IMG/VR virus record: IMGVR_UViG_3300028553_000200
Coordinates: 1 to 20,647 of that record
Source: a virus
Strand: one strand, 5' to 3'
DNA length: 20,647 nt
Shown: positions 4,798-20,259 of the stretch, piece by piece
Layout: each line of letters opens with the position of its first letter
Numbering within the stretch: the stretch's first letter is position 1
The notes under the pieces: model-generated
What the model was told of the DNA's origin: nothing
Seen by the model: only the letters and a program-made list of their open reading frames with translations
Database searches by the model: none
Made by a program: the position numbers and the translations under genes

Positions 4798-5634
4798 TTA
4801 ATTATCTATTTCTATATTAATATATTTTTTCTTAACATCTTTAGGATTTGAAGTATCATATATTACAAATTTAACTTTAGGATATTTCTTCAATAATTCT
4901 TTCCTAATGAATTCTTCCATTTTTTTGATGTTACCTAAATCATCATCACTGAATCCAATTTTAACTCCCTCTCTATCTGGGTGGTCAACCAAATCCTCAA
5001 CCTTTTTAACAACACTTTCAACATATTTCTCAAAAGCCATTGTCTTTGCTACTTCAGGGTTTTCAGCACCACCTTTTGATTGGTATTCAGTTTTAAATTC
5101 TTCTGAAGAAACTGCCGATAATTGTTGGTCACTTATATAGTCATCAATACTTTTATATTTCTTTTCTTTTAAATTTTTATTCATTGTTTCTTTTTCTTCA
5201 TCAGAGAAAGTCATATCAATTAAAACTTTTATACCCTTTCTTAAAGAATCTTTACTTATACCACGAGCTGTAATGATTGAAAAATCATATCCATTTATTA
5301 AAGCTTTTTTGAACTTTTTGAAACTAGGTCCAAATTCATTAGCATTAATGGCATCTTTAGTATGTTGAATAAAAATTTCAGTTTTAAAATCTTTAAAGGC
5401 GTCATTTGGATTATTGTTTTTTAATCTCAATTTTTCCCCATCAAGTTCATGTCGTATCTCTCTAAACTTTTCTGTTGATACTTCATAATCTTTCCAACCA
5501 CCATTTGATTTTTTCTCCAAATGTATTTTTGTTGGCATATTTAAAACATTATCATCCCAATCAAATGAATAACCCTTTTCATAAAATTCACTTAATATTC
5601 TCCTATATTGGTTTTCAGTTACTAATATTCTCAT
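4798..5634 (-). CDS. HAD-superfamily phosphatase-like protein with N-terminal tag-like peptide
   Basis: This 278-residue protein shows haloacid-dehalogenase motifs in order. Motif I is FDWDDNV (Asp25 nucleophile, Asp27 acid/base), motif II is IITARG (Thr122), a motif III Lys is probably Lys204 in FEKYVES, and motif IV is GFSDDDLGN (Asp230-Asp232). A large mostly helical insertion separates motifs II and IV and could hold the cap. HAD enzymes hydrolyse phosphoesters through a phospho-Asp intermediate with Mg2+. Substrate is not evident; nucleotide or polynucleotide ends (as in T4 Pnkp) are possible. The first 16 residues, MRILVTENQYRRILSE, precede the domain and resemble peptides in the SOD fusion gene. 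The start is supported by TATTTAT 14 nt upstream. It lies between sheath and tube genes, an unusual place for an enzyme. No terminator with a G/C stem follows. Confidence 0.72.
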   Translation of the reverse strand: MRILVTENQYRRILSEFYEKGYSFDWDDNVLNMPTKIHLEKKSNGGWKDYEVSTEKFREIRHELDGEKLRLKNNNPNDAFKDFKTEIFIQHTKDAINANEFGPSFKKFKKALINGYDFSIITARGISKDSLRKGIKVLIDMTFSDEEKETMNKNLKEKKYKSIDDYISDQQLSAVSSEEFKTEYQSKGGAENPEVAKTMAFEKYVESVVKKVEDLVDHPDREGVKIGFSDDDLGNIKKMEEFIRKELLKKYPKVKFVIYDTSNPKDVKKKYINIEIDN

Positions 5635-6295: not shown

Positions 6296-9200
6296 TTAAA
6301 TATTCTCAAATGAAGCACCTGTTGGGGTGATGTAAAAAGTAATATCTATAAATTCTAACGCTCTAGTTGGTTTGATGTATATCTTACCTGTCAATTGGTT
6401 TCTATCCAAATCAGCCGGATCTGAAGAAACTGTTACACGGAAATCGTATAAACCTCTATCTCTTCTGATAGCGTCTAGGATTGGATTAACCGCATCCAAG
6501 AAGTCTTGTCTAACCTTGGCATCGTTTTGTTCGAATAATAACCTTACAGATACCGCAGAAATCAATTTACGTGCTTGTAATAACAATCTTCTAACATTGA
6601 TTCTGTCTAACGCAGATTCTCTAATTTGTAAAGTCTTGTTACCCCAAATTACAGTTCCAACATCAGAGAAAGTCGCAATAGGATTAATTCTACCTTTGTA
6701 TAAAGTATCTCTTTCTTCTTGTGTTAGTTTTCGTCTAGCCTTAACTGCATTAACAATACCACGAGTATAACCTGCCGCAGCAAACCAAGGAAAAGCGATA
6801 TTGTCAGTTAATGCTAAGTTTCTACATACCTCCGCAGTTGGAGGAATATAAACCTGAGTGTTATTAACCGTGTCTCTTGTTAATACCCAAGGATAATATG
6901 TTGCCGTATAATTAGAATCAATATTACTTTCTTCCAAACTATCAACCGCTTCTTGAGGGAAAATACTATTGATTGGGTCACTAGTATTTGGTGCTAACAT
7001 ATTATAGTCGGGTGTTGTACAAATATATATTGAGTCAGCCCTATCAAACTCTACCATTTCTATTGCCGCCTCAACTAAGTTAGAATTAAATACATAATCA
7101 ATACCTGGTGTTGTGAAAACATTAATATTAACCGCTTCTGGATTTGAAAATGTTTGTTGAGCTAACAAGTAAGCATAATAGTCAGTGTTAGCGTAATCTT
7201 CACTATTATTACCAACTGTAATACGTTTAAATGTTCCATTACCAGTCGCAGTTGGATATCTTAATGATGTACAAACACCTCTTAAGAAACCAGATCCACC
7301 TAATCTGAATTCATCACCATTTGATCTTCTTTCTCTATACACATCCCAACCATCAAAACCGCCTCGACACAATAAAGTAAATTTACGTGCGTTTAACCTA
7401 TAATATGGATTTGTCGCATTTTCTGGGTCTGTGATAAATTCACCAGAACCAACTTGGAACGCGGATGTACCACTAGTTGTAAAGAAGTTAGATATTGTAA
7501 TAGCCGAAGCGTTTTTATCCATATGGAAACCTTGAGTTTTAAACGCCCAATTAGTACCAACACCTTCACAAGTATCTATTGGATTTTGTTTTCCTTTATA
7601 TCCAAAGAAATCAATATCATATCCAATAGTATCTGAAATACCTAAATATGTTCTTTTTACATTATCCCCACCACTTCTAGATATATCATCTGCACCCGAT
7701 ATTAAACCAAATGGTGGATTGTATATAACTTCACCAGGGAAATCATATTTTGTTTTATAAATTGGGAATGGAGATTTAACGCCAGCATACTCCCTAAACA
7801 TATAACCTTCAAATCCACAAGGTAAGGCATCAGTTGGAGCATCTTCATTCATCTCCAACATCACATATTTTGAATTCATTTGGAACTCACCATTACTAGT
7901 ACCAATCTTTTTAGCAATAAAACTATTTTCATTGGGGTTCATCGTACAATTGGTGAATCTCTCAATTACCACAGGATTAGCATCAGTATCAAAGAAATCA
8001 CGTACAAATACATCAAATGTTCCATTATTGAACGACATATTACCAATTGATATTTTTACTTCCGTATTAGCGGCATCACCATCAGCTATTGTAATAAACT
8101 TAAATAGATTGAATACTTTATTACCTCTTAATTCAGAAACAACCCAAGGTGATTCCGGTGATTGATATTGTTCCAAATACCATCCAATTGATGTTGATAC
8201 TTGAGAAATTGCTGAATCTAAAGAAGTCAAATTACAATTCAAACCTCTGATATAACCTTTTCTGTAAGCGTAATTTAATAAACTTTGGAATCTTTCTTCC
8301 AAAAATAATGGTACAACAGTTCTAGGTTTTGCAAAGTTAGAGTAACCAAATACCTTACCAATATAATTAACATTTGAATTTGAGAATGAAGTTTCAAAGA
8401 AGAAAGTATCTCCGTCCTTATCTGTTACATTTACCCCAAAAGTTGAATATGGGTTTTTAGTTACCGCAGAATATGTTCCAATACAATTCAATGACACATC
8501 AGTCAAACCCGTTACTTGATAAGCTGGACCTGTACTATTACTACCATAAGTAGCAATACCCCTTGAACGTAATGTGGCGATAACCAAATCATCGTAATTA
8601 GTATACGCCATACCTGAGAACACATATATAGTTCCAGTGACAATACCCGAATAACAAGTTACAACAACAGGTGTTGGAGTAGTCGTTGGTGTTGGTGTTG
8701 GTAATGGTGTCACACAAGGATTAATTGGTGTTGGTGATGGTGGTGGCGGTGGCGGTGGCATCGTTGAAGTTATTGTTGTCGGCAACACCGTCAATCCAGA
8801 TACAATAGAATAATACGAAAACCCAGTATACATTGAATTAATACCAGTATGGTCAAACAAAGCATAATACCAAGGGTCATTAGCTGGGGCGTTGTAATTA
8901 ATAAGACTAGCATCAACATTATCTACTTTAAACACATTAGTTGCGGCAGTATATCCTGTTGAAACTAAGGCTGTGTAATCTGAACCCGAAATTGGTCCAT
9001 AGTAGTAAATTGAATTGTCATCCAAACTTGGGGTAATTAATACATCCAATATTTGTTGATACATATTATCCCTCAAGGTACTAATTGAACCGTTGAACTG
9101 TTCAAAAGGTAAATCAATTTTACTTAGAATTAATGGTTCAATACTTGATGTAAAGGCAATTGTTTCCACATTGTTAGTACAACCAGTAAAGTCAATTGAA

Positions 9201-9637
9201 TAATCATAGATTGAGTACCCAGTACAAACTGGTTCACAAGTACCTGATGGTATTGTTGAACCCAAACATAAGAAATCAACGGTTGATTGGTCAACATTTG
9301 CAATTGTTGATATAGACCAAGATGGTCCCGCATCATAACCTGATAATCCCAATATTCTTGTTACAAATAATTGATTAGATTGTTGCAAATACGCCTTGGC
9401 AATATAAGCCGCCTCATATTTTGGTATTTGTGTGTTGATGAATTTTTCTGGTGAAGTACCACCAAAGTAGGCTGTGAACTCGTCAAAGTTTCTAATGAAT
9501 ATAGGTTCAAAAGCGGGACCTTTAAGAGTTTCACCGACAATACCTAATGTTGTAACACCCACACTCTGTGATACAAAACTTAAGTCAACTTCGGAAGTAT
9601 AAACACCTGGTGATACGAAAACTTTAGAATTAGACAT
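6296..9637 (-). CDS. Tail sheath protein, extra-long with proline-rich linker (T4 gp18-like)
   Basis: The N-terminus (FVSPGVYTSEVDLS, residues 7-20) and the C-terminus (IYIKPTRALEFIDITFYI, then TPTGASFENI) are the hallmark ends of contractile tail sheath subunits. These assemble in helical rings around the tube and shorten on injection. A typical sheath middle, YPWVLTRDTVNNTQVYIPPT followed by AVKARRKLTQEERDTLY, lies near residues 910-1000. The protein is 1113 residues against 659 for T4 gp18. The excess sits mainly between about residues 100 and 560 and includes a P/T linker (MPPPPPPPSPTP to PTPTPTTTPTP, residues about 293-323) flanked by beta-rich, Cys-containing segments. These are likely surface-exposed insertion domains. 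A terminator follows. A TATTTAT motif lies 36 nt upstream of the ATG at 9637. Confidence 0.93.
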   Translation of the reverse strand: MSNSKVFVSPGVYTSEVDLSFVSQSVGVTTLGIVGETLKGPAFEPIFIRNFDEFTAYFGGTSPEKFINTQIPKYEAAYIAKAYLQQSNQLFVTRILGLSGYDAGPSWSISTIANVDQSTVDFLCLGSTIPSGTCEPVCTGYSIYDYSIDFTGCTNNVETIAFTSSIEPLILSKIDLPFEQFNGSISTLRDNMYQQILDVLITPSLDDNSIYYYGPISGSDYTALVSTGYTAATNVFKVDNVDASLINYNAPANDPWYYALFDHTGINSMYTGFSYYSIVSGLTVLPTTITSTMPPPPPPPSPTPINPCVTPLPTPTPTTTPTPVVVTCYSGIVTGTIYVFSGMAYTNYDDLVIATLRSRGIATYGSNSTGPAYQVTGLTDVSLNCIGTYSAVTKNPYSTFGVNVTDKDGDTFFFETSFSNSNVNYIGKVFGYSNFAKPRTVVPLFLEERFQSLLNYAYRKGYIRGLNCNLTSLDSAISQVSTSIGWYLEQYQSPESPWVVSELRGNKVFNLFKFITIADGDAANTEVKISIGNMSFNNGTFDVFVRDFFDTDANPVVIERFTNCTMNPNENSFIAKKIGTSNGEFQMNSKYVMLEMNEDAPTDALPCGFEGYMFREYAGVKSPFPIYKTKYDFPGEVIYNPPFGLISGADDISRSGGDNVKRTYLGISDTIGYDIDFFGYKGKQNPIDTCEGVGTNWAFKTQGFHMDKNASAITISNFFTTSGTSAFQVGSGEFITDPENATNPYYRLNARKFTLLCRGGFDGWDVYRERRSNGDEFRLGGSGFLRGVCTSLRYPTATGNGTFKRITVGNNSEDYANTDYYAYLLAQQTFSNPEAVNINVFTTPGIDYVFNSNLVEAAIEMVEFDRADSIYICTTPDYNMLAPNTSDPINSIFPQEAVDSLEESNIDSNYTATYYPWVLTRDTVNNTQVYIPPTAEVCRNLALTDNIAFPWFAAAGYTRGIVNAVKARRKLTQEERDTLYKGRINPIATFSDVGTVIWGNKTLQIRESALDRINVRRLLLQARKLISAVSVRLLFEQNDAKVRQDFLDAVNPILDAIRRDRGLYDFRVTVSSDPADLDRNQLTGKIYIKPTRALEFIDITFYITPTGASFENI
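8670..8760 (-). repeat. Low-complexity Pro/Thr-coding repeat inside the sheath gene
   Basis: The plus strand shows repeated GGTGTTGGT and GGTGGCGGT units, encoding on the minus strand runs of Pro and TP/PT dipeptides interrupted by a short non-repeated piece (INPCVTPLP). It codes for a flexible linker joining two parts of the sheath insertion and is a likely site of length variation. Confidence 0.75.
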
Positions 9638-11521: not shown

Positions 11522-13288
11522 TTGACTTTAACAGGAAAAACATCAACTCTTATTGAAACAAAAGCTCTATATATTTTAGATAATTATTTGGGTGGGAACA
11601 ATTATATCCTCAAACTAAAAAATCTAAAAGAAACCAATAAGAAATTCTATCCCACCAGATCCCAATCAGAATATATCGTAAATTATAATTCAGTTGAACC
11701 AAAGGTTGCCAAGAAATGGGTGAACATAGAACCTTATTTCGCAAAGAAGATTGCTGATGAAAAAAATATGTTGAACATCCCCACAGACGTTTGGGTTGAA
11801 AAATTATTGGTTGATAAAGAAAAATCTTATCACATTTGGGGTAAGTTTAACACTGGTGATACGTTATCAGATATGTGGTTACCTAAAGCCGCGTTATTGA
11901 AAACACATAACACAACTGAAGTTAAAATTGATTATTCAAAGTATAGTCATAGGACGCCCTTGGAACATCAAAAGGTCGCCATTGAGAAATTGGTTGGTAG
12001 TAAAAAATTCATATTAGCAGACGATATGGGCCTGGGAAAAACAACTGCGGCAATCATAGCCTCACTAGAAACAAATGTTAAGAAAATCTTAATAATATGT
12101 CCCGCTTCATTAAAGTTAAATTGGGAGAGGGAAATTAGAAATTATTCCGATAGAAGTGTTTATATTTGTGAGGGAAAGAATTTCTCCACCGAGCACGATA
12201 TTGTTATCATAAATTATGATATTGTTAAAAATTTCTATGATTTAAAAGATAAGGAGAACTCCCCAATTACAAAAGGTAATTTTGATTTGATTATAATGGA
12301 CGAGGCACATTATGTTGCAAATCCCCAATCATTGAGAACGAAATTGATTAATAGTTTTGTTAAGAGTTCAGAATACCTTTGGTTGTTAACAGGAACTCCA
12401 ATGACAAACAGACCAATCAATTATTATAACTTATTAAACTTAATTGAAAGTCCTGTAGCTCAAAATTGGATGGCTTATGTTATTCGGTATTGTCAAGGAT
12501 ATCAATTCAAGGCGGGAAATAGAAAGGTGTGGAATGTCAACGGAGCATCTAACTTGGAAGAATTAAGAGATAGGACATCAAGACAAGTGTTAAGAAGATT
12601 AAAAGAAGATGTTTTGGATTTACCTGAGAAGATTATAACCCCAATCTATTTGAGATTAAAATCAAAGAAATATGAAGAATTGATGGGGGAATATTATGAG
12701 TGGTATAATAAAAACCCTAACGAATCAAAATCATTAACCGTTCAATTTAATAAGTTGATGAAGGTTAGACAAGCAATTGCCGAAGGAAAAGTACCTGATA
12801 CAATTGAATTTATTGAGAATGTATTGGAACAAGGCAAGAAGGTTATTGTATTCACAAACTTTACTGATACCCTACAACAAATCCACACCCACTTTGGGAA
12901 GAAATCAGTTTATTTGGATGGGACTTGTTCAAAGGCTCAAAGACAATACGCTGTTGATCAATTCCAAGATAATGAAAAGATATCTGTATTCGTTGGTAAT
13001 ATTCAAGCAGCAGGAGTTGGTATTACATTAACCGCAGGAGAAGCAGTTATATTCAATGACTTATCGTTTGTTCCCGCACATCACCAACAGGCTGAAGATA
13101 GAGCTTATAGATATGGGCAGAAAAATTGTGTTTCAGTTTATTACCCAATCTTTGATAATACTATTGAGGGTGTTATATATGATATGTTAATTAATAAAAA
13201 GAATATCATTGATACTGTTATGGGCGATAATATTGATAAGGCTGAATTTATAGAACAGATAATGAATAAGATTAACGTATCACATTGA
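11522..13288 (+). CDS. SNF2-type (SMARCAL1-like) superfamily 2 DNA helicase/translocase
   Basis: This 588-residue protein has all SF2/SNF2 motifs: Q-like PLEHQKVAIEKL (146-157), Walker A DDMGLGKTT (167-175), Ia ICPASLKLNW, Walker B DEAH (260-263), motif III LLTGTPM (288-294), motif V GNIQAAGVGITLT (492-504) and motif VI QAEDRAYRYGQ (523-533). The Q-A-E-D-R-A-.-R form is typical of SNF2 proteins, and the compact build resembles the annealing-helicase (SMARCAL1/HARP) group. It would act on branched or annealing DNA, the job T4 gives to UvsW. About 140 residues precede the motor and are not recognised. The start is TTG 11522: the only nearby ATG (11505) is out of frame, and the frame is closed by TAA at 11486. 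TATTTTTAT lies 15 nt upstream as a longer version of the motif. The next gene starts 23 nt after its stop. Confidence 0.88.
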   Translation: MTLTGKTSTLIETKALYILDNYLGGNNYILKLKNLKETNKKFYPTRSQSEYIVNYNSVEPKVAKKWVNIEPYFAKKIADEKNMLNIPTDVWVEKLLVDKEKSYHIWGKFNTGDTLSDMWLPKAALLKTHNTTEVKIDYSKYSHRTPLEHQKVAIEKLVGSKKFILADDMGLGKTTAAIIASLETNVKKILIICPASLKLNWEREIRNYSDRSVYICEGKNFSTEHDIVIINYDIVKNFYDLKDKENSPITKGNFDLIIMDEAHYVANPQSLRTKLINSFVKSSEYLWLLTGTPMTNRPINYYNLLNLIESPVAQNWMAYVIRYCQGYQFKAGNRKVWNVNGASNLEELRDRTSRQVLRRLKEDVLDLPEKIITPIYLRLKSKKYEELMGEYYEWYNKNPNESKSLTVQFNKLMKVRQAIAEGKVPDTIEFIENVLEQGKKVIVFTNFTDTLQQIHTHFGKKSVYLDGTCSKAQRQYAVDQFQDNEKISVFVGNIQAAGVGITLTAGEAVIFNDLSFVPAHHQQAEDRAYRYGQKNCVSVYYPIFDNTIEGVIYDMLINKKNIIDTVMGDNIDKAEFIEQIMNKINVSH

Positions 13289-13311: not shown

Positions 13312-15933
13312 ATGATGATACTTGAAAACAAAATCAATTTATTAACAGAAAAAATCAATGCTGGTGAGTTTCTATTATTGGAAATGAAAAAGATTGGGAT
13401 TGAGAAATTACCTTATTCGAAATCCTCACTTAAAAGATTTATTGATGGTAAAACTATGGATGTTCATTATAACGGACATTATAAAACATATGTAAAGAAA
13501 CTAAACGACGTGTTATCTAAAAAAAATTACGGTGATTTAGAATTAGAAGATATTATTAAATCAATTAGTAAATTCCCGAAAACTGTCAGAAACAATGCGG
13601 GTGGGGCATTTAACCATGTTTTATTTTGGAAAATGTTATCACCCCAAAAAAAAGAAATCCCATCAGAATTAAAATCAAGAATTATAAAAGATTTTGGATC
13701 AATAAATGAATTTAAAAATAAATTCAACGAAGAATCTAAAGATAGATTCGGATCTGGATGGTGTTGGTTGGTTCTAACAAAAAATGGTAGGTTAAAAATT
13801 ATGTCAACACCAAATCAAGACAATCCATTAATGAATGTTATTGAGGGAGGTGGGTTTCCAATATTAGGTTTGGACTTATGGGAACATGCGTATTATCTAA
13901 AGTATCAAAACAAAAGAGATGAATATATTAAAAACTTTTGGCATGTAGTTAATTGGGACTTTGTAAATGACTTGTATTTGAAAAAACAAAAATCTAAATT
14001 AATGGAATCAATTAGGATTATTAAAGAAGAAACTAGTAATGACGGATTACCTGAAAGTGAATACATCGTTAATGGAAGAATTAATCCCAAATTAACCCAA
14101 GAATTATTAAAAAAAGTATATCCAGAATGTAGTCCTAAAATAATAAAAGATTATGACTTAAATAAACGTATACCAAATGCCTGTTATGGTAAAATAGAAT
14201 CAGATACTTGCAAAACTGGTTATGGTGTTATTGGTGGTAAATATGCGATGAGTCAAAGGGGTGGTTTAGGTGAATGGTCAGTTTTGAATTGGTTTGACGG
14301 TCATAAAGATATTAGTAAAAAGATTTTAGAGTTTTATGGATTTCTAAATAGTGAAAAAAGTTCGTTTAAGTCTTGGATGAATAAAATGAAAAATGCTTTA
14401 TTTGCTGAAGACAGAAAATTAGTCCAACAATTATTACCATTAATTTCTAATCCTGAAACAAAAAAAGGATCATTAGACCTTGGTATTACTAGAGAAAATA
14501 CTGCGGTAGATATTTTAAATTCCTTATATAGTCAATCAAAAATAACAAGATTTTGTGATGGAGACCTTCGTGATAAATTTAAAGGTCAAGATATGATATG
14601 GAATGAAGACAATGTTGATAAGTTCGTTCAGGTTAAACCAACACATGATTTATTTAAAGGTGATGAGAATGGACAACCAATATATGTATTCAAAAGTAAA
14701 AACAAATATGAAGTTAAGAATATTCAAATATTTGTTTTCATATATAATCGTAACAATTATATATTATTCAATAATAACGCAACCCCAACCCCAATTGAAA
14801 ACGATTCTAATTTCAAATATTCATATACATTCAAAGAAGATGAGATAATGAAAAAAGATGGCAATGTTTTCTTAAAAAAATTAACTGAATCAACACGTAA
14901 AAACAGACTATTACTTGAGGGTAGTAATTTCCCATTCTCCAAAAAAAGAATGAGGGATTTAATGTTTAATCAATACCCAAGTTGTGATGATGATAAGTCA
15001 GGTAATGGTTGTATTGGTAAAATTAATGAACCAAATTGCGAAACAAACATTGGGATTATTGGAGGTTATTACACAGAAGAAGAATATGGTGGAAGTGGTA
15101 ATTGGTCATTAATTAATCGTTGGGATGCCAATACAAATATTCATAGTGCAATTATTAACATATATAAAAGAGAAAAAAAGAAAACAAAACGTAATTTAAA
15201 TCTTGAGGATTGGATTTTAGAAAACGTATATGACTTGTTCTCAAATGATGGAATTTACACAGAAGAACTAGTTGATATTGCTAAAGATTATTTTGATAAA
15301 GGTATTAAAAATGAATCTTTTGCCAAAAATATTATTGAGAAAATATATGATTTAGATAAGAAAAAAGAAAATATTGACTATAAGTTATATAACTATTGTG
15401 GTGGAGCAATCAATGATACACTTTATGGTCAAGATATTGTTTTAGAACTAGAAAACAATGAACCAATTTACTTCCAAGTAAAACCATTCAAGCCAGACGA
15501 TATTGGTTATTTTGAAGACGATGATAGAGGGTTTTATTATGGGGTTAAATCATATAACCAACATAATAAATATAAAATGGATTATGTTGATATTATAATA
15601 TATGTTAATACATCAACAGATGAATATGTTATGTTCAGAAATGATTATAATAAAATAATAACAACAAGTAGTACCAATTACGGTGGTCTTAAATTTATAA
15701 TCAATTATTATGAAGAACCATTAAAAACAAATATATTATTTGAATTAAAGAAAGGAACAACATTAAGTTCAGAAAAAAAATTATTACGAAGAGACAAAGA
15801 AAAATTAGTTAAGTATTACCAAGATAGAATACAATTCTTTCAAGATAAACTAAAAGATTTGGGAATTTCAGAAGAATTAAGTGAAGGTATTAAACAATGT
15901 AAAATTCAATTGTTGAAATTATTAACACAATAA
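13312..15933 (+). CDS. Superoxide dismutase (Mn/Fe type) fused to two tandem copies of an unknown nuclease-like module
   Basis: This protein is 873 residues. Residues 25-225 are a whole Fe/Mn superoxide dismutase, which converts superoxide to O2 and H2O2. The metal ligands are present: His52 (VHYNGHYKTY), His102 (FNHVLFW), Asp188 and His192 (DLWEHAYY). Second-shell residues are His56, Tyr60 and Gln169 in NQD, with Gly98 where iron enzymes have Gln; this is the manganese pattern. Then come two related modules, about 250-515 and 537-802. Each has three cysteines (273, 291, 300; 558, 567, 576), a G.IGG.Y.....GG.G.WS..N..D block, and GQD followed by QVKP (Asp427, Lys442; Asp708, Lys724), like a PD-(D/E)xK core with Gln for Glu. 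The C-terminus is a basic coiled coil. LTE...LLLE peptides lie at residues 11-24 and 524-536. I chose ATG 13312 over TTG 13285, which overlaps the helicase stop. Confidence 0.88.
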   Translation: MMILENKINLLTEKINAGEFLLLEMKKIGIEKLPYSKSSLKRFIDGKTMDVHYNGHYKTYVKKLNDVLSKKNYGDLELEDIIKSISKFPKTVRNNAGGAFNHVLFWKMLSPQKKEIPSELKSRIIKDFGSINEFKNKFNEESKDRFGSGWCWLVLTKNGRLKIMSTPNQDNPLMNVIEGGGFPILGLDLWEHAYYLKYQNKRDEYIKNFWHVVNWDFVNDLYLKKQKSKLMESIRIIKEETSNDGLPESEYIVNGRINPKLTQELLKKVYPECSPKIIKDYDLNKRIPNACYGKIESDTCKTGYGVIGGKYAMSQRGGLGEWSVLNWFDGHKDISKKILEFYGFLNSEKSSFKSWMNKMKNALFAEDRKLVQQLLPLISNPETKKGSLDLGITRENTAVDILNSLYSQSKITRFCDGDLRDKFKGQDMIWNEDNVDKFVQVKPTHDLFKGDENGQPIYVFKSKNKYEVKNIQIFVFIYNRNNYILFNNNATPTPIENDSNFKYSYTFKEDEIMKKDGNVFLKKLTESTRKNRLLLEGSNFPFSKKRMRDLMFNQYPSCDDDKSGNGCIGKINEPNCETNIGIIGGYYTEEEYGGSGNWSLINRWDANTNIHSAIINIYKREKKKTKRNLNLEDWILENVYDLFSNDGIYTEELVDIAKDYFDKGIKNESFAKNIIEKIYDLDKKKENIDYKLYNYCGGAINDTLYGQDIVLELENNEPIYFQVKPFKPDDIGYFEDDDRGFYYGVKSYNQHNKYKMDYVDIIIYVNTSTDEYVMFRNDYNKIITTSSTNYGGLKFIINYYEEPLKTNILFELKKGTTLSSEKKLLRRDKEKLVKYYQDRIQFFQDKLKDLGISEELSEGIKQCKIQLLKLLTQ

Positions 15934-15957: not shown

Positions 15958-17079
15958 ATGTCAATAATACCCGAACCAGAAAGAACACAGCTCTACACAA
16001 AATTAAGACACTCATTGGGTGCTCCACTAAGAAGTATTGAGCTGGAAGATGAACAACTAGATTCCTTATTACAATTGGCAATTGAGGATTATTCACAATA
16101 CATACAAGATTGGTTAATTGAATCTCAATGGTCTTCCTTATATGGATTGAACTTGGATACCCAATCATTATCAAAAGCCTTCATAACAAAAGGTTTTGAC
16201 TTTGAGAATAGATATTCTTATGCCTATTCTAAAATTGTTGGATTACAAGCTGGTGGTGACAGTGTATTAAAGAAAGATTATATACAACTTATACCCCACC
16301 AACAGATATATGAAATACCAGCAGGTCGTGAGTTAAACGAACTTCTATGGTTTACTCCAGCAACTCTTAATAATTTATTATTTGACCCATTTTCGTTTGG
16401 TGCTATGGGTGGTGTTGGATTGGGTGGTCCTGGTGGTTTTACTCAAATGGGTAATAGTGGTTCATATTTTATGATGCCAGTATTTGATATGTTATTAAGA
16501 ATGCAGGAAATTAATATCCAAAGAAGAATTATTGGTGGGGAAATGACTTATCGTGTTACCGCACTACCTGAAGGCAAAAAAGCTGTTCACTTAATGCAAA
16601 CACCTGGGGGTAAATTTGACTTTGGTAATGCAACATTGATGAATGGTAAGGTTTGGTATTGGTATTATGAAGTTGACGGTCCAGATAGAGATGACTGTTT
16701 AAAAAAGAATCCTGATATAATAAAATTACCTTCCGATGTCCCATTTGATAAACTAAGTTGGATTGATTTAAATAACCCCGCTCAAATATGGGTTCGTAAG
16801 TGGTTCTTTGCGTCCGCCAAGGAAACATTATCAAAAGTAAGGGGTAAGTTCAGTGGTAACATTAAAACTCCTGACAGCGAGCTTACAATGGATTATCAGA
16901 GTTTAGCCACAGAAGGTAAAGATGAAAAAACAAAATTGATTGAAGAATTAACTGGGGCTGAAGGAAGATTATCAAGACTTAGACCAGAAAAGGTAATGGA
17001 AAGAGAAGCGTTGATTGCTGAAAACCTAAATAAGGTTAAAAAATTCCAAGCAATGCCAAGACAAATATATGTAATATAA
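15958..17079 (+). CDS. Neck protein (T4 gp13-like)
   Basis: This protein is 373 residues; T4 gp13 has 309. The N-terminal helices LRHSLGAPLRSIELEDEQLDSLLQLAIEDY (residues 16-45) match the LGaP...iELtdeql...i..A..dY opening of gp13-type neck proteins, which connect the packaged head to the tail. The middle, LKKDYIQLIPHQQIYEIP followed by a hydrophobic stretch, fits the beta core. A glycine-rich loop (FGAMGGVGLGGPGGF, 147-161) and a C-terminal charged helix (EELTGAEGRLSRLRPEKVMEREAL) follow. It lies on the plus strand, while the gp14/gp15-like genes are on the minus strand 4 kb away, so the neck set is split over two directions. Its stop and the next start share one base (TAATG), showing translational coupling. 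Confidence 0.75.
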   Translation: MSIIPEPERTQLYTKLRHSLGAPLRSIELEDEQLDSLLQLAIEDYSQYIQDWLIESQWSSLYGLNLDTQSLSKAFITKGFDFENRYSYAYSKIVGLQAGGDSVLKKDYIQLIPHQQIYEIPAGRELNELLWFTPATLNNLLFDPFSFGAMGGVGLGGPGGFTQMGNSGSYFMMPVFDMLLRMQEINIQRRIIGGEMTYRVTALPEGKKAVHLMQTPGGKFDFGNATLMNGKVWYWYYEVDGPDRDDCLKKNPDIIKLPSDVPFDKLSWIDLNNPAQIWVRKWFFASAKETLSKVRGKFSGNIKTPDSELTMDYQSLATEGKDEKTKLIEELTGAEGRLSRLRPEKVMEREALIAENLNKVKKFQAMPRQIYVI

Positions 17080-17457: not shown

Positions 17458-20259
17458 TTAACCATTATTAAATTGTTCCCATCCTTCTTCAGCTAAATCG
17501 TAAATATAGTTGGGATTAATTCCTCTTTTGTTCCAGTATTCAATTTCCTTTTGTTCTAAATCCAATACATCCTCCTTTAGTCTGTCTTGATCTTTTTCCT
17601 CAAATGGAACTCCATTTATTAGTTCACATTGTTGTTGTGTATAGAATTGTCTTTTCACAGGATTATCAATAATAAGAGTATCTCTCACATCTTGTTTGAA
17701 GACAACTAATAAAGGTTCAATACGATTATTAAATGTTGTGATTGTTCTCGCTACATTGTATTCTCCTGTCATGTTGGGATTGTTTTCTAAATCGTTTGGG
17801 TCTAACATATAACAATTAAGTTGTGTATAAGAATCAACAGAATCTAGTGGTATTTGTCCATAACCTTCCATAAAATTATCTAAATCTTGTTGAGTCCAAC
17901 CTTTTTTTGGTTTATTAATTTTTTGTACATCCCCATGACTTGCTTTTGTTCCGTTATTAACATAATAAATTACATCACCCAAATTAATTTTTAGATTATG
18001 TTTGATTGCTAATTCTAAATGAGCCATTCTCGACATTGCCCCACCTGATTTGGTTGTTTGTTTTGACCTCTCAATATAATCCTTGATACTCAGTTTAACC
18101 TTAGCTCTTTGAGCCACTTTCATCAATGGTATTTCTTTGTTATAGATTTTAGTTAAGTATTCATAATACCACTCAACAAACTTTTGACCCTCACCTTCCA
18201 ATAACAATCTAATTGCTTTATCCAAATATTCCTCAATGTATAGTGGAAGTTTTTTTGATTTAATTGAGTTACCTGTAAGTTTTACCTTTCCATTGTGTTC
18301 CATCGTTGCGTAATTCTTACGAGCAAGATTAATACATGATTTCCAAGTTCCATCACAATCTAGAGCCATTTCACCTCTCATAAAAATATCGTTAAACTCC
18401 GCAACATCAGCATCATATCCTTTATACTCCTTACCCTTTTTAACCTTCCAATTAAGACCTTTCCCAATATAAACTCTATCATCCACTCCACCTTTAGGTA
18501 GTGAGAAATTCACACCATCCGTATCCATTACAAGTGCGGTATAACCTTTTCCCATAAAAAACTTAATCATCTGACGAAGATATTGTCTTCCAGTACAAGT
18601 TATCTGTTCACCCATATACATATCACCCCATGCAAACACATGAGGGGCTGATAAAGCACCAAACATTGAGTTGATGAATATCTTGATTGGTAATTGTTTT
18701 CTATCATATGATAATGATTTCTTCTTGTCTTTATCATACCATTCAGCCGCCAAGTTCTTGTACATAATACGAGCACTTCTAAAATATGATAACATACCTT
18801 TCATCGCACCTGTAATATCACAATCAGGGAATACATCGTGAACCAATTGAATTGATGGATATAGAGATGAGTAGTCAAGTTTTAAAACATCCTTGGAATA
18901 ACCCACTCTTAATAGTCTTGATAAACCACCAACAAAATCAGTTTTCTTTTCTTTTTGGGGAATTGCAAGTTTATGTTTATAAGACCAAGCCATCATCAAC
19001 ATTTTCCATAATGTTGCAGTTCCAATGGTGGAAACTCTTTCATAAGTTGTTGGAATCATTGAGGCCAACATAAATGTACCTTGATTGAATTCATCATCCA
19101 CCTTCAAGGTTTCCTCCAAGTCATCATCCAAATATCTCTCAACAATATTGTCCCCAGTTGTTTTAATATAAACACCAGGATGTTTTTTATCTAGGTTATT
19201 GAATTGTGGATTATCAGCTTTCTTATATTTTCCATTTTGGACATTCAACCAATACTCTTCTTTATTAGCGTACATTGACCCAATTTTATTATGGTCAATA
19301 TAAACACGATCAGGAGCTTCAACATTAATATACTGAGTAATGTATTTAAGACCTGCAGATTTAATACTCGAATTGATTGCTTGAGCTCTTCTAACTGAGT
19401 GTAGGATATCAATAACATTATATCCCCATATTCCAATCTGTTTAAATTCCTCTACTTCATTTGCGAGTTTCAACATACCCTTAGTTTGTTTAAATTTATA
19501 TTCTGGATGTAAGGTCTTACATATACGTTTAATGTCAAGATGTAAAGTTTTACACCTTTCCATAATCCAATACCAGTCAAAGTTGGATGAATTATATCCA
19601 CCAATGATTGATGGTTTAACTTCGTCAATAATTCTGAAAAACTCAACAAGCCCTGCTCGTTCTTGGTCTTCAGTTGCACATTCAATTACTTTCTCTAATC
19701 CTTTGTTTGTTTTAATTCCAATCATAAATATTCTACCATCTTTAGGTTCTAAAGAGGTAGTCTCTAAGTCGAATACCAATCTTGTAATGTCATTATAATC
19801 ATCGTACCCTTTGAATAACCTCTTTTCCTTTTGGATTAGATATTGTTCAACTGGGGAAGGTATTAAGAAGTATTCTTTGGTTTTTTCGCCATAAGGGTCA
19901 ATTCCTCCTTCTTTAAAGAATTGCATTAAACTTCTGTAACCCTTTAAAGATTTGACCATATACTTAAGACCTTTCTCAAGTCTTTCATTACCACCAGTCT
20001 CCAATTTCTCAATTAGGATTCCGTGTTTGGTCATTGCTTCTTTTTGATTTGCTTTGGACGATTTGTAGAAATTAAGTCCGTGTAGGTCACCAACCCAAGC
20101 AAATGGGGTGAATGTATCCTTTCTAATTTCTTTTCCTTTACCGGGGATTTCTTTAATCTTAAAGATGTTTTCTGAAGCCCAATCATATTCTATTGCGACT
20201 ATGTGTTCTTCGGGGTCGTTTCCGTGGAGGAAACTTTCGATTTCTTCTGGTGTTATCAT
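17458..20259 (-). CDS. Family B replicative DNA polymerase (T4 gp43-like)
   Basis: This 933-residue protein is close to T4 gp43 (898 aa). The 3'-5' exonuclease motifs are complete: Exo I VFDLETTS (Asp164, Glu166), Exo II NSSNFD (Asn223-Asp228) and Exo III YNVID (Tyr280, Asp284). Polymerase motifs are motif A LDYSSLYPSI (Asp462), motif B KIFINSMFG (Lys526, Asn530, Gly534) and motif C VMDTDG (Asp579, Asp581). Both activities should therefore work, giving accurate replication of the phage genome. The N-terminal domain (residues 1-160) and the C-terminal 350 residues (thumb and clamp-binding end) are present, and I see no intein, intron or split. The start ATG 20259 is preceded by an A/T-rich leader of about 60 nt with a small hairpin (20289-20305) and a TATTTAT motif (20320-20326). 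The gene converges on the gp13-like unit. Confidence 0.96.
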   Translation of the reverse strand: MITPEEIESFLHGNDPEEHIVAIEYDWASENIFKIKEIPGKGKEIRKDTFTPFAWVGDLHGLNFYKSSKANQKEAMTKHGILIEKLETGGNERLEKGLKYMVKSLKGYRSLMQFFKEGGIDPYGEKTKEYFLIPSPVEQYLIQKEKRLFKGYDDYNDITRLVFDLETTSLEPKDGRIFMIGIKTNKGLEKVIECATEDQERAGLVEFFRIIDEVKPSIIGGYNSSNFDWYWIMERCKTLHLDIKRICKTLHPEYKFKQTKGMLKLANEVEEFKQIGIWGYNVIDILHSVRRAQAINSSIKSAGLKYITQYINVEAPDRVYIDHNKIGSMYANKEEYWLNVQNGKYKKADNPQFNNLDKKHPGVYIKTTGDNIVERYLDDDLEETLKVDDEFNQGTFMLASMIPTTYERVSTIGTATLWKMLMMAWSYKHKLAIPQKEKKTDFVGGLSRLLRVGYSKDVLKLDYSSLYPSIQLVHDVFPDCDITGAMKGMLSYFRSARIMYKNLAAEWYDKDKKKSLSYDRKQLPIKIFINSMFGALSAPHVFAWGDMYMGEQITCTGRQYLRQMIKFFMGKGYTALVMDTDGVNFSLPKGGVDDRVYIGKGLNWKVKKGKEYKGYDADVAEFNDIFMRGEMALDCDGTWKSCINLARKNYATMEHNGKVKLTGNSIKSKKLPLYIEEYLDKAIRLLLEGEGQKFVEWYYEYLTKIYNKEIPLMKVAQRAKVKLSIKDYIERSKQTTKSGGAMSRMAHLELAIKHNLKINLGDVIYYVNNGTKASHGDVQKINKPKKGWTQQDLDNFMEGYGQIPLDSVDSYTQLNCYMLDPNDLENNPNMTGEYNVARTITTFNNRIEPLLVVFKQDVRDTLIIDNPVKRQFYTQQQCELINGVPFEEKDQDRLKEDVLDLEQKEIEYWNKRGINPNYIYDLAEEGWEQFNNG

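Follow-up and report, generated by a model that had tools for sequence, protein, structure and literature searches.

Gene organization at the locus

The analysed window, the whole stretch of 20,647 nucleotides in the IMG/VR virus record IMGVR_UViG_3300028553_000200, encodes an 873-amino-acid protein that begins, after a short leader, with a complete Fe/Mn superoxide dismutase (SOD). The single frame is open from end to end with zero internal stops. Two nuclease-like modules (NUCA1 and NUCA2) and a helical tail follow SOD in the chain (Table 1). The first-pass annotation had described one 873-residue frame holding a complete SOD, and this description holds. An identical 873-amino-acid protein is encoded in four further separate IMG/VR contigs (L002, L003, L083, L084), so the fusion is real, and a frameshift or misassembly is unlikely.

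The location, with a SNF2-like helicase on one side and a neck gene on the other, had been taken as the sign of a phage gene, which is right. The order is conserved across the relatives: the neck gene follows the polyprotein gene directly in 98 loci, in 3 it has another position, and nearly all relatives with sufficient flank have the SNF2-like helicase upstream. The tail sheath protein of the window (1113 amino acids) carries a large extra part with a Pro/Thr-rich stretch PPPPPPSPTPINPCVTPLPTPTPTTTPTP. The family B DNA polymerase, encoded in a phage whose head genes are T4-like, has only distant relatives among phage isolates, namely the Salinibacter and Nostoc/Anabaena phages (about 24% identity).

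Table 1. Features of the polyprotein gene and other genes in the window (↓, predicted cleavage position).
Feature	Position	Strand	Evidence or remark
HAD-like ORF	4798..5634	-	HAD assigned by eye
Tail sheath protein	6296-9637	-	1113 aa
SNF2-like helicase	11522..13288	+	conserved upstream neighbour; outside the polyprotein
Polyprotein ORF	13312..15933	+	873 aa; leader - SOD - linker - NUCA1 - linker - NUCA2 - tail
Leader MMILENKINLLTEKINAGEFLLLE	13312..13383	+	24 residues, capsid-targeting-like; predicted protease site LLLE↓M (Glu24)
Fe/Mn superoxide dismutase module	13384..13986	+	residues 25-225; Pfam, PDB match, active-site alignment, tree, dN/dS
Linker 1 QKSKLMESIRIIKEE	13987..14031	+	predicted protease site IIKE↓E (Glu239); targeting-like ES box
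Nuclease-like module NUCA1	14032..14874	+	residues 241-521; PD-(D/E)XK-type motif GQD...FVQVKP
Linker 2 KKLTESTRKNRLLLE	14875..14919	+	predicted protease site LLLE↓G (Glu536)
Nuclease-like module NUCA2	14920..15801	+	residues 537-830; AlphaFold model pLDDT 91
Helical C-terminal tail	15802..15930	+	residues 831-873; secondary structure of model
gp13/neck-like head-tail adaptor gene	15958..17079	+	phrog_211; conserved downstream neighbour; outside the polyprotein
Family B DNA polymerase	17458-20259	-

The superoxide dismutase module

Residues 31-220 match the Pfam families Sod_Fe_N (PF00081, E=1.7e-19) and Sod_Fe_C (PF02777, E=3.9e-40). The scores of 70.5 and 136.5 bits exceed the curated cut-offs of 27 and 20.9, respectively. 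The top sequence match in the PDB is the MnSOD of Sphingobacterium (E=4.8e-59, 44% identity), and the predicted structure of the module matches MnSODs with a target-normalised TM score of 0.88 (E=5e-18). The metal ligands proposed earlier, His52, His102, Asp188 and His192, are located at these positions, and none of the 96 aligned phage rows deviates at any of them. The manganese-type second shell, defined by the equivalents of Gly77 and Gln146 and by a Gly two positions before the Asp ligand, is represented by Gly98, Gln169 and Gly186, which are likewise invariant. His56, Tyr57, Trp106 and Glu191 also do not vary, and the equivalents of His30, Tyr34 and Glu170 are kept in all 96 rows. The module is thus a complete SOD with an intact active site, for which catalysis is predicted. 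One of the roles first considered, in which the SOD fold would serve only to bind metal, is disfavoured, given that the invariance extends past the ligands to other active-site residues. The module is also selectively maintained: the median dN/dS of 0.044 (56 pairs) indicates strong purifying selection. Both the SOD chemistry and the anatomy of the modules are well supported.

In a tree with 76 bacterial SODs, calculated with long branches left out, the phage SODs lie on one side of a branch with an SH-aLRT support of 100; in the first tree, which included the long-branched L086 and L087, the phage group was split by one extra change. The nearest cellular SODs belong to Ignavibacteriota and Bacteroidota, mostly to Bacteroidota, with up to 53% identity. 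The best fit is a single capture of SOD and, after it, a long period of vertical and modular evolution. By capsid protein, the nearest isolates include Flavobacterium phages of the genus Immutovirus. Because of these phages and the nearest cellular SODs, the host is probably a member of the Bacteroidota.

Relatives and exchangeable modules

A scan of IMG/VR with SOD alone found at least 598 stretches that encode a relative. In every one of the best 80 of these at least 598 stretches, SOD was part of a longer ORF. Initially, no described fusion of this kind had been known. SOD fusions are common in uncultured phages, and a public database already lists a 501-amino-acid example under the name 'superoxide dismutase [uncultured Caudovirales phage]'. 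This entry matches the nuclease model; members of the family are therefore already deposited, seemingly unrecognised. No description of a SOD-bearing phage polyprotein was found in the open-licence papers searched, which does not prove its absence.

The first-pass annotation had considered the remaining 650 residues unrelated to SOD. They do lie outside SOD, but they are no unrelated filler: one new nuclease-like module (NUCA) is present in two homologous copies, at residues 241-521 and 537-830. Glu132, Asp166, Asp172, Gln186 and Lys188 of NUCA are invariant in 33 rows. The model (mean pLDDT 91) has the order alpha-beta-beta-beta, in which the helix with the Glu is followed by the strands with the Asp and with (D/E/Q)xK. 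The best folds in the PDB, I-Ssp6803I, the SPARDA nuclease and D212, are weak matches with E-values of 9e-3 to 0.08 and low global TM scores. The motif and these weak fold matches suggest a PD-(D/E)XK-type nuclease-like module, for which nuclease activity is predicted. The NUCA profile had no match among PDB sequences, and tblastn with residues 229-873 yielded no match in 50,697 phage records.

Profiles built in this analysis distinguish further modules in the relatives: a zincin-like module (ZNP), NUCB, NUCC and MODD. Neither these nor NUCA had a match above the cut-off in Pfam and PHROGs. The most frequent architectures are SOD-NUCB (48, including those with a NUCA match on the same stretch) and ZNP-SOD-NUCA (42). 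SOD-NUCA-NUCA, the type of the window, was found 5 times, ZNP-SOD-NUCC 3 times, ZNP-SOD-MODD and SOD-NUCA-MODD twice each, and SOD-NUCA-NUCC once. In 5 complete proteins SOD has a leader and a short tail only. The C-terminal module thus comes from four families across the relatives. As in zincins, HEWVH or HEWIH is present in 52/52 members of ZNP, a module not present in the protein of the window. The Pfam matches of ZNP, M76 and SprT, are both sub-threshold. Stand-alone ZNP and NUCA proteins also exist. Modules are exchanged between linkers and the neighbouring genes are fixed; this is therefore a single locus, in which SOD is constant and its partners can be exchanged. At least two distinct effector domains and shuffled architectures, the properties of polyvalent proteins, are found here as many architectures at a single locus.

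On the minus strand of L027 (2067-3548), L029, L035 and L017, proteins of about 490-505 amino acids are encoded upstream of the SNF2 helicase. They comprise a leader, zinc-ribbon-like CxxC motifs and a NUCA-like C-terminal domain.

Leader, linkers and the prohead protease

In bacteriophage T4, the prohead protease gp21 cleaves after L/I-X-E (PMC9026906). The internal head proteins IPI, IPII, IPIII and Alt carry capsid-targeting sequences that are removed by gp21 (PMC9026906, PMC9958956). IPIII needs only its first 10 residues to be incorporated into the head, and fusion to IPIII allows foreign proteins to be packaged and then ejected into cells (PMC9026906).

The leader of the phage polyprotein and its two linkers end in, or contain, a site of this type. 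Clusters were formed below 90% SOD identity. [LI]-x-E in the form [LIF][LI]xE occurs immediately before SOD in 33/33 clusters (0.74 expected after shuffling of each extension), the linker after SOD has a site in 25/31 clusters (5.3 expected), and the composite of ES box and site is present in 23/34 post-SOD linkers (0.8 expected). At the upstream site, all 33 clusters have Glu at position -1 and either Ile or Leu at position -3; position -2 varies. The same site precedes SOD in 69/69 unique polyproteins, and Glu24 is invariant in alignment A3. The stricter post-SOD site is missing in 6/31 linkers. Three of the six read ILE or LNE; no clear post-SOD site was found in the other three (L017, L031, L287). 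SOD begins straight after the upstream site, with Met in most relatives and Ala in some. An internal start at the SOD Met instead of a cleavage is disfavoured because several relatives carry Ala at that position. In the AlphaFold model of the whole chain, pLDDT falls below 50 at residues 4-32, 229-249 and 526-538, while the modules are ordered. The linkers are read as disordered, and the low pLDDT coincides with the three predicted sites.

Matches to Peptidase_S77 and Gp23 above the curated cut-offs were obtained for contig G028, which belongs to the virus of the window, and for four relatives. A gp21-type protease and a gp23-type capsid protein with a matching maturation site hence occur in the same virus, the setting of T4-type internal head proteins. 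The head genes follow the T4 order of terminase, portal, core protein, protease, scaffold and capsid protein, where the names other than protease and capsid protein were given by eye from position and sequence. The phage group is T4-like and widespread. In the alignment with T4 gp23, SYLINE↓A is placed on SFLTE↓A, and the Glu and the Ala are invariant. Because the capsid site matches, the protease of this virus very probably shares the specificity seen at the SOD junctions.

A stand-alone NUCA protein (L106:6105-7061, + strand) on contig G027 has the leader MKITISEGQYKILSE↓ and is encoded between the protease and scaffold genes (gp21/gp22), within the head-core cluster. The polyprotein gene adjoins the neck gene and lies outside this cluster. 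In G027, 17/338 ORFs have a leader of this type, e.g. MKKVIRLTESDLVRLVKQVINE↓, compared with about 1.2% in internal and shuffled controls. In the relative G011, the contig of which was largely covered, the genome-wide leader motif showed no enrichment. Immutovirus phages of Flavobacterium have comparable leaders on a few proteins.

Some related observations were made on other proteins. Leaders of the form MKKxIRLTESDLxxxVKRIINE↓ precede otherwise unrelated small proteins of contig G027 (L111, L112, L115, L116 and L125). Together, these may be the proteins that a 322-kb phage injects. The HAD-like ORF of the window starts with MRILVTENQYRRILSE↓FYEKGYSFDWDDNV, in which a targeting-like leader is followed by an apparent HAD-type FDWDD motif; it is a possible second packaged protein. 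Two prohead proteases begin with site-like leaders themselves, RILEASEFGHGILVE↓ADAG in L107:11226-11942 and RILNPGELGKGILIE↓NDG in L105:16898-17617. T4 gp21 cleaves itself, and these leaders would fit self-cleavage.

Proposed function of the polyprotein

The 873 residues had been regarded as a single enzyme. Most likely, they represent a polyprotein, the modules of which are held apart by disordered linkers with L/I-x-E sites. The leader and the leader-like linker in front of each later module would serve as capsid-targeting sequences and direct the chain into the prohead core. There, the virus's own gp21-type protease would cut after [LI]-x-E, removing the 24-residue leader and leaving SOD with a native-like N-terminus. 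The same cleavage would separate SOD from both nuclease-like modules. Mature SOD and nucleases would remain in the head beside the DNA and be delivered along with it to the next host. Injected SOD could remove superoxide in the first minutes, before phage gene expression, and the nuclease-like modules would probably attack host or competing DNA. Taken as a whole, the polyprotein is probably a capsid cargo from which the prohead protease releases SOD and two nuclease-like proteins, and these enter the host along with the DNA. Points against this reading are the shortness of the L/I-x-E motif, the post-SOD linkers that lack the stricter site, the missing leader enrichment in G011, the position of the gene beside the neck gene and the weak fold matches of the nuclease-like module. 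Superoxide removal just after entry appears as the most likely purpose by analogy with chlorovirus PBCV-1, whose virion-packaged but unrelated SOD has been argued to act in this way (PMC7019647).

An uncut polyvalent protein, packaged and injected as a whole chain with the linkers as flexible spacers, is an unlikely alternative. Phages are known to encode polyvalent proteins, multidomain effectors in which a zincin is joined to further enzymes (PMC5512222), and the modules are in one frame in nearly all relatives. Spacers of this kind would not account for the invariance of the site residues in an otherwise variable leader and linkers, for sites that match the virus's own capsid maturation site, or for a SOD that begins exactly behind the site with either Met or Ala.

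It is also improbable, to a slightly higher degree, that the protein is an ordinary auxiliary SOD that stays unpackaged in the cytoplasm and protects the host during phage production. Such a role could be imagined from the stand-alone SODs of the jumbo phages PA5oct and Vibrio phage 2.275.O, which give no sign of packaging. The leader of the polyprotein, in contrast, has an invariant end of the prohead protease type, leaders are common to unrelated proteins, and a NUCA protein is encoded in the head-core cluster. A structural use of the SOD fold, as neck or head decoration or for metal storage and without catalysis, is very improbable. The gene directly precedes the neck gene in the 98 loci, as would suit a structural protein, yet a purely structural role would not preserve the ligands, the Mn-type second shell and the His30/Tyr34/Glu170 equivalents all together in 96 rows. 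That a misassembly or frameshift joined a host SOD to phage genes has a negligible probability, having nothing in its favour beyond the frequency of SOD in bacteria and being rejected, as is a host fragment, by identical junctions in independent contigs, the conserved gene order and the separate clade of phage SODs.

With packaging and cleavage as the preferred reading, the locus may well constitute a new modular cargo locus of a large clade of T4-like phages, in which a capsid-targeting and cleavage segment of its own precedes each enzyme of the chain, the constant SOD as well as the exchangeable nuclease-like and zincin-like modules. To our knowledge, neither a virion-delivered SOD of a bacterial virus nor a tandem-targeting polyprotein has been known before. 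Capsid-delivered effectors and defence against oxidative stress, two things not known together, would be combined. If so, superoxide at infection would be a problem that is met with a ready enzyme, hinting at a host response not yet considered or at a side effect of DNA entry. The [LI]-x-E-flanked locus would offer a sequence rule for the injected cargo of a large group of uncultured phages, and also a natural way to load several proteins into a capsid.

Comparison with known systems

The internal head proteins of T4 share with the polyprotein a short N-terminal leader ending in L/I-x-E, a leader type present on unrelated proteins, and the same lineage of capsid and protease. The T4 products are single proteins with one leader each, whereas here a single chain joins several enzymes, each behind a leader-like linker. 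The cargo here consists of a redox enzyme and nuclease-like modules, and its packaging is predicted.

The polyvalent proteins of phages and conjugative elements are also large multidomain proteins with shuffled effectors, often with a zincin-like metallopeptidase, and are thought to be packaged and injected (Iyer et al. 2017, PMC5512222). For these, cleavage by their own zincin is the principal processing route proposed, in contrast to the prohead-protease-type sites of the present family. Superoxide does not occur in that survey (PMC5512222), and the modules described here, except SOD, match no Pfam or PHROG family. As far as found, tandem targeting and cleavage segments between enzymes are present in neither the T4 nor the polyvalent systems as described in the literature.

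The Mn/Fe SODs of Bacteroidota, e.g. of Sphingobacterium sp. T2 (PDB 6GSC), have the same fold, ligands and second shell. They are single-domain proteins of about 200 amino acids, whereas the phage SODs form a separate clade inside polyproteins. The particle of chlorovirus PBCV-1 contains a SOD as well, and infected cells have less superoxide (PMC7019647). This enzyme is an unrelated Cu/Zn SOD1 and a single product of a eukaryotic virus, with experimentally shown packaging. The jumbo-phage SODs (PA5oct group, Vibrio phage 2.275.O) are Fe/Mn SODs of tailed phages like the one described here. The identity is about 30%, and the Vibrio gene, a 570-base ORF, encodes a single domain and no further modules.

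Several 'phage' records (Staphylococcus, Listeria, Enterococcus, Escherichia and Salmonella, e.g. Staphylococcus phage SA 1298/1306 Kay) hold a host-like SOD. These appear to be host sequences filed under phage names, and they were left out of the analysis.
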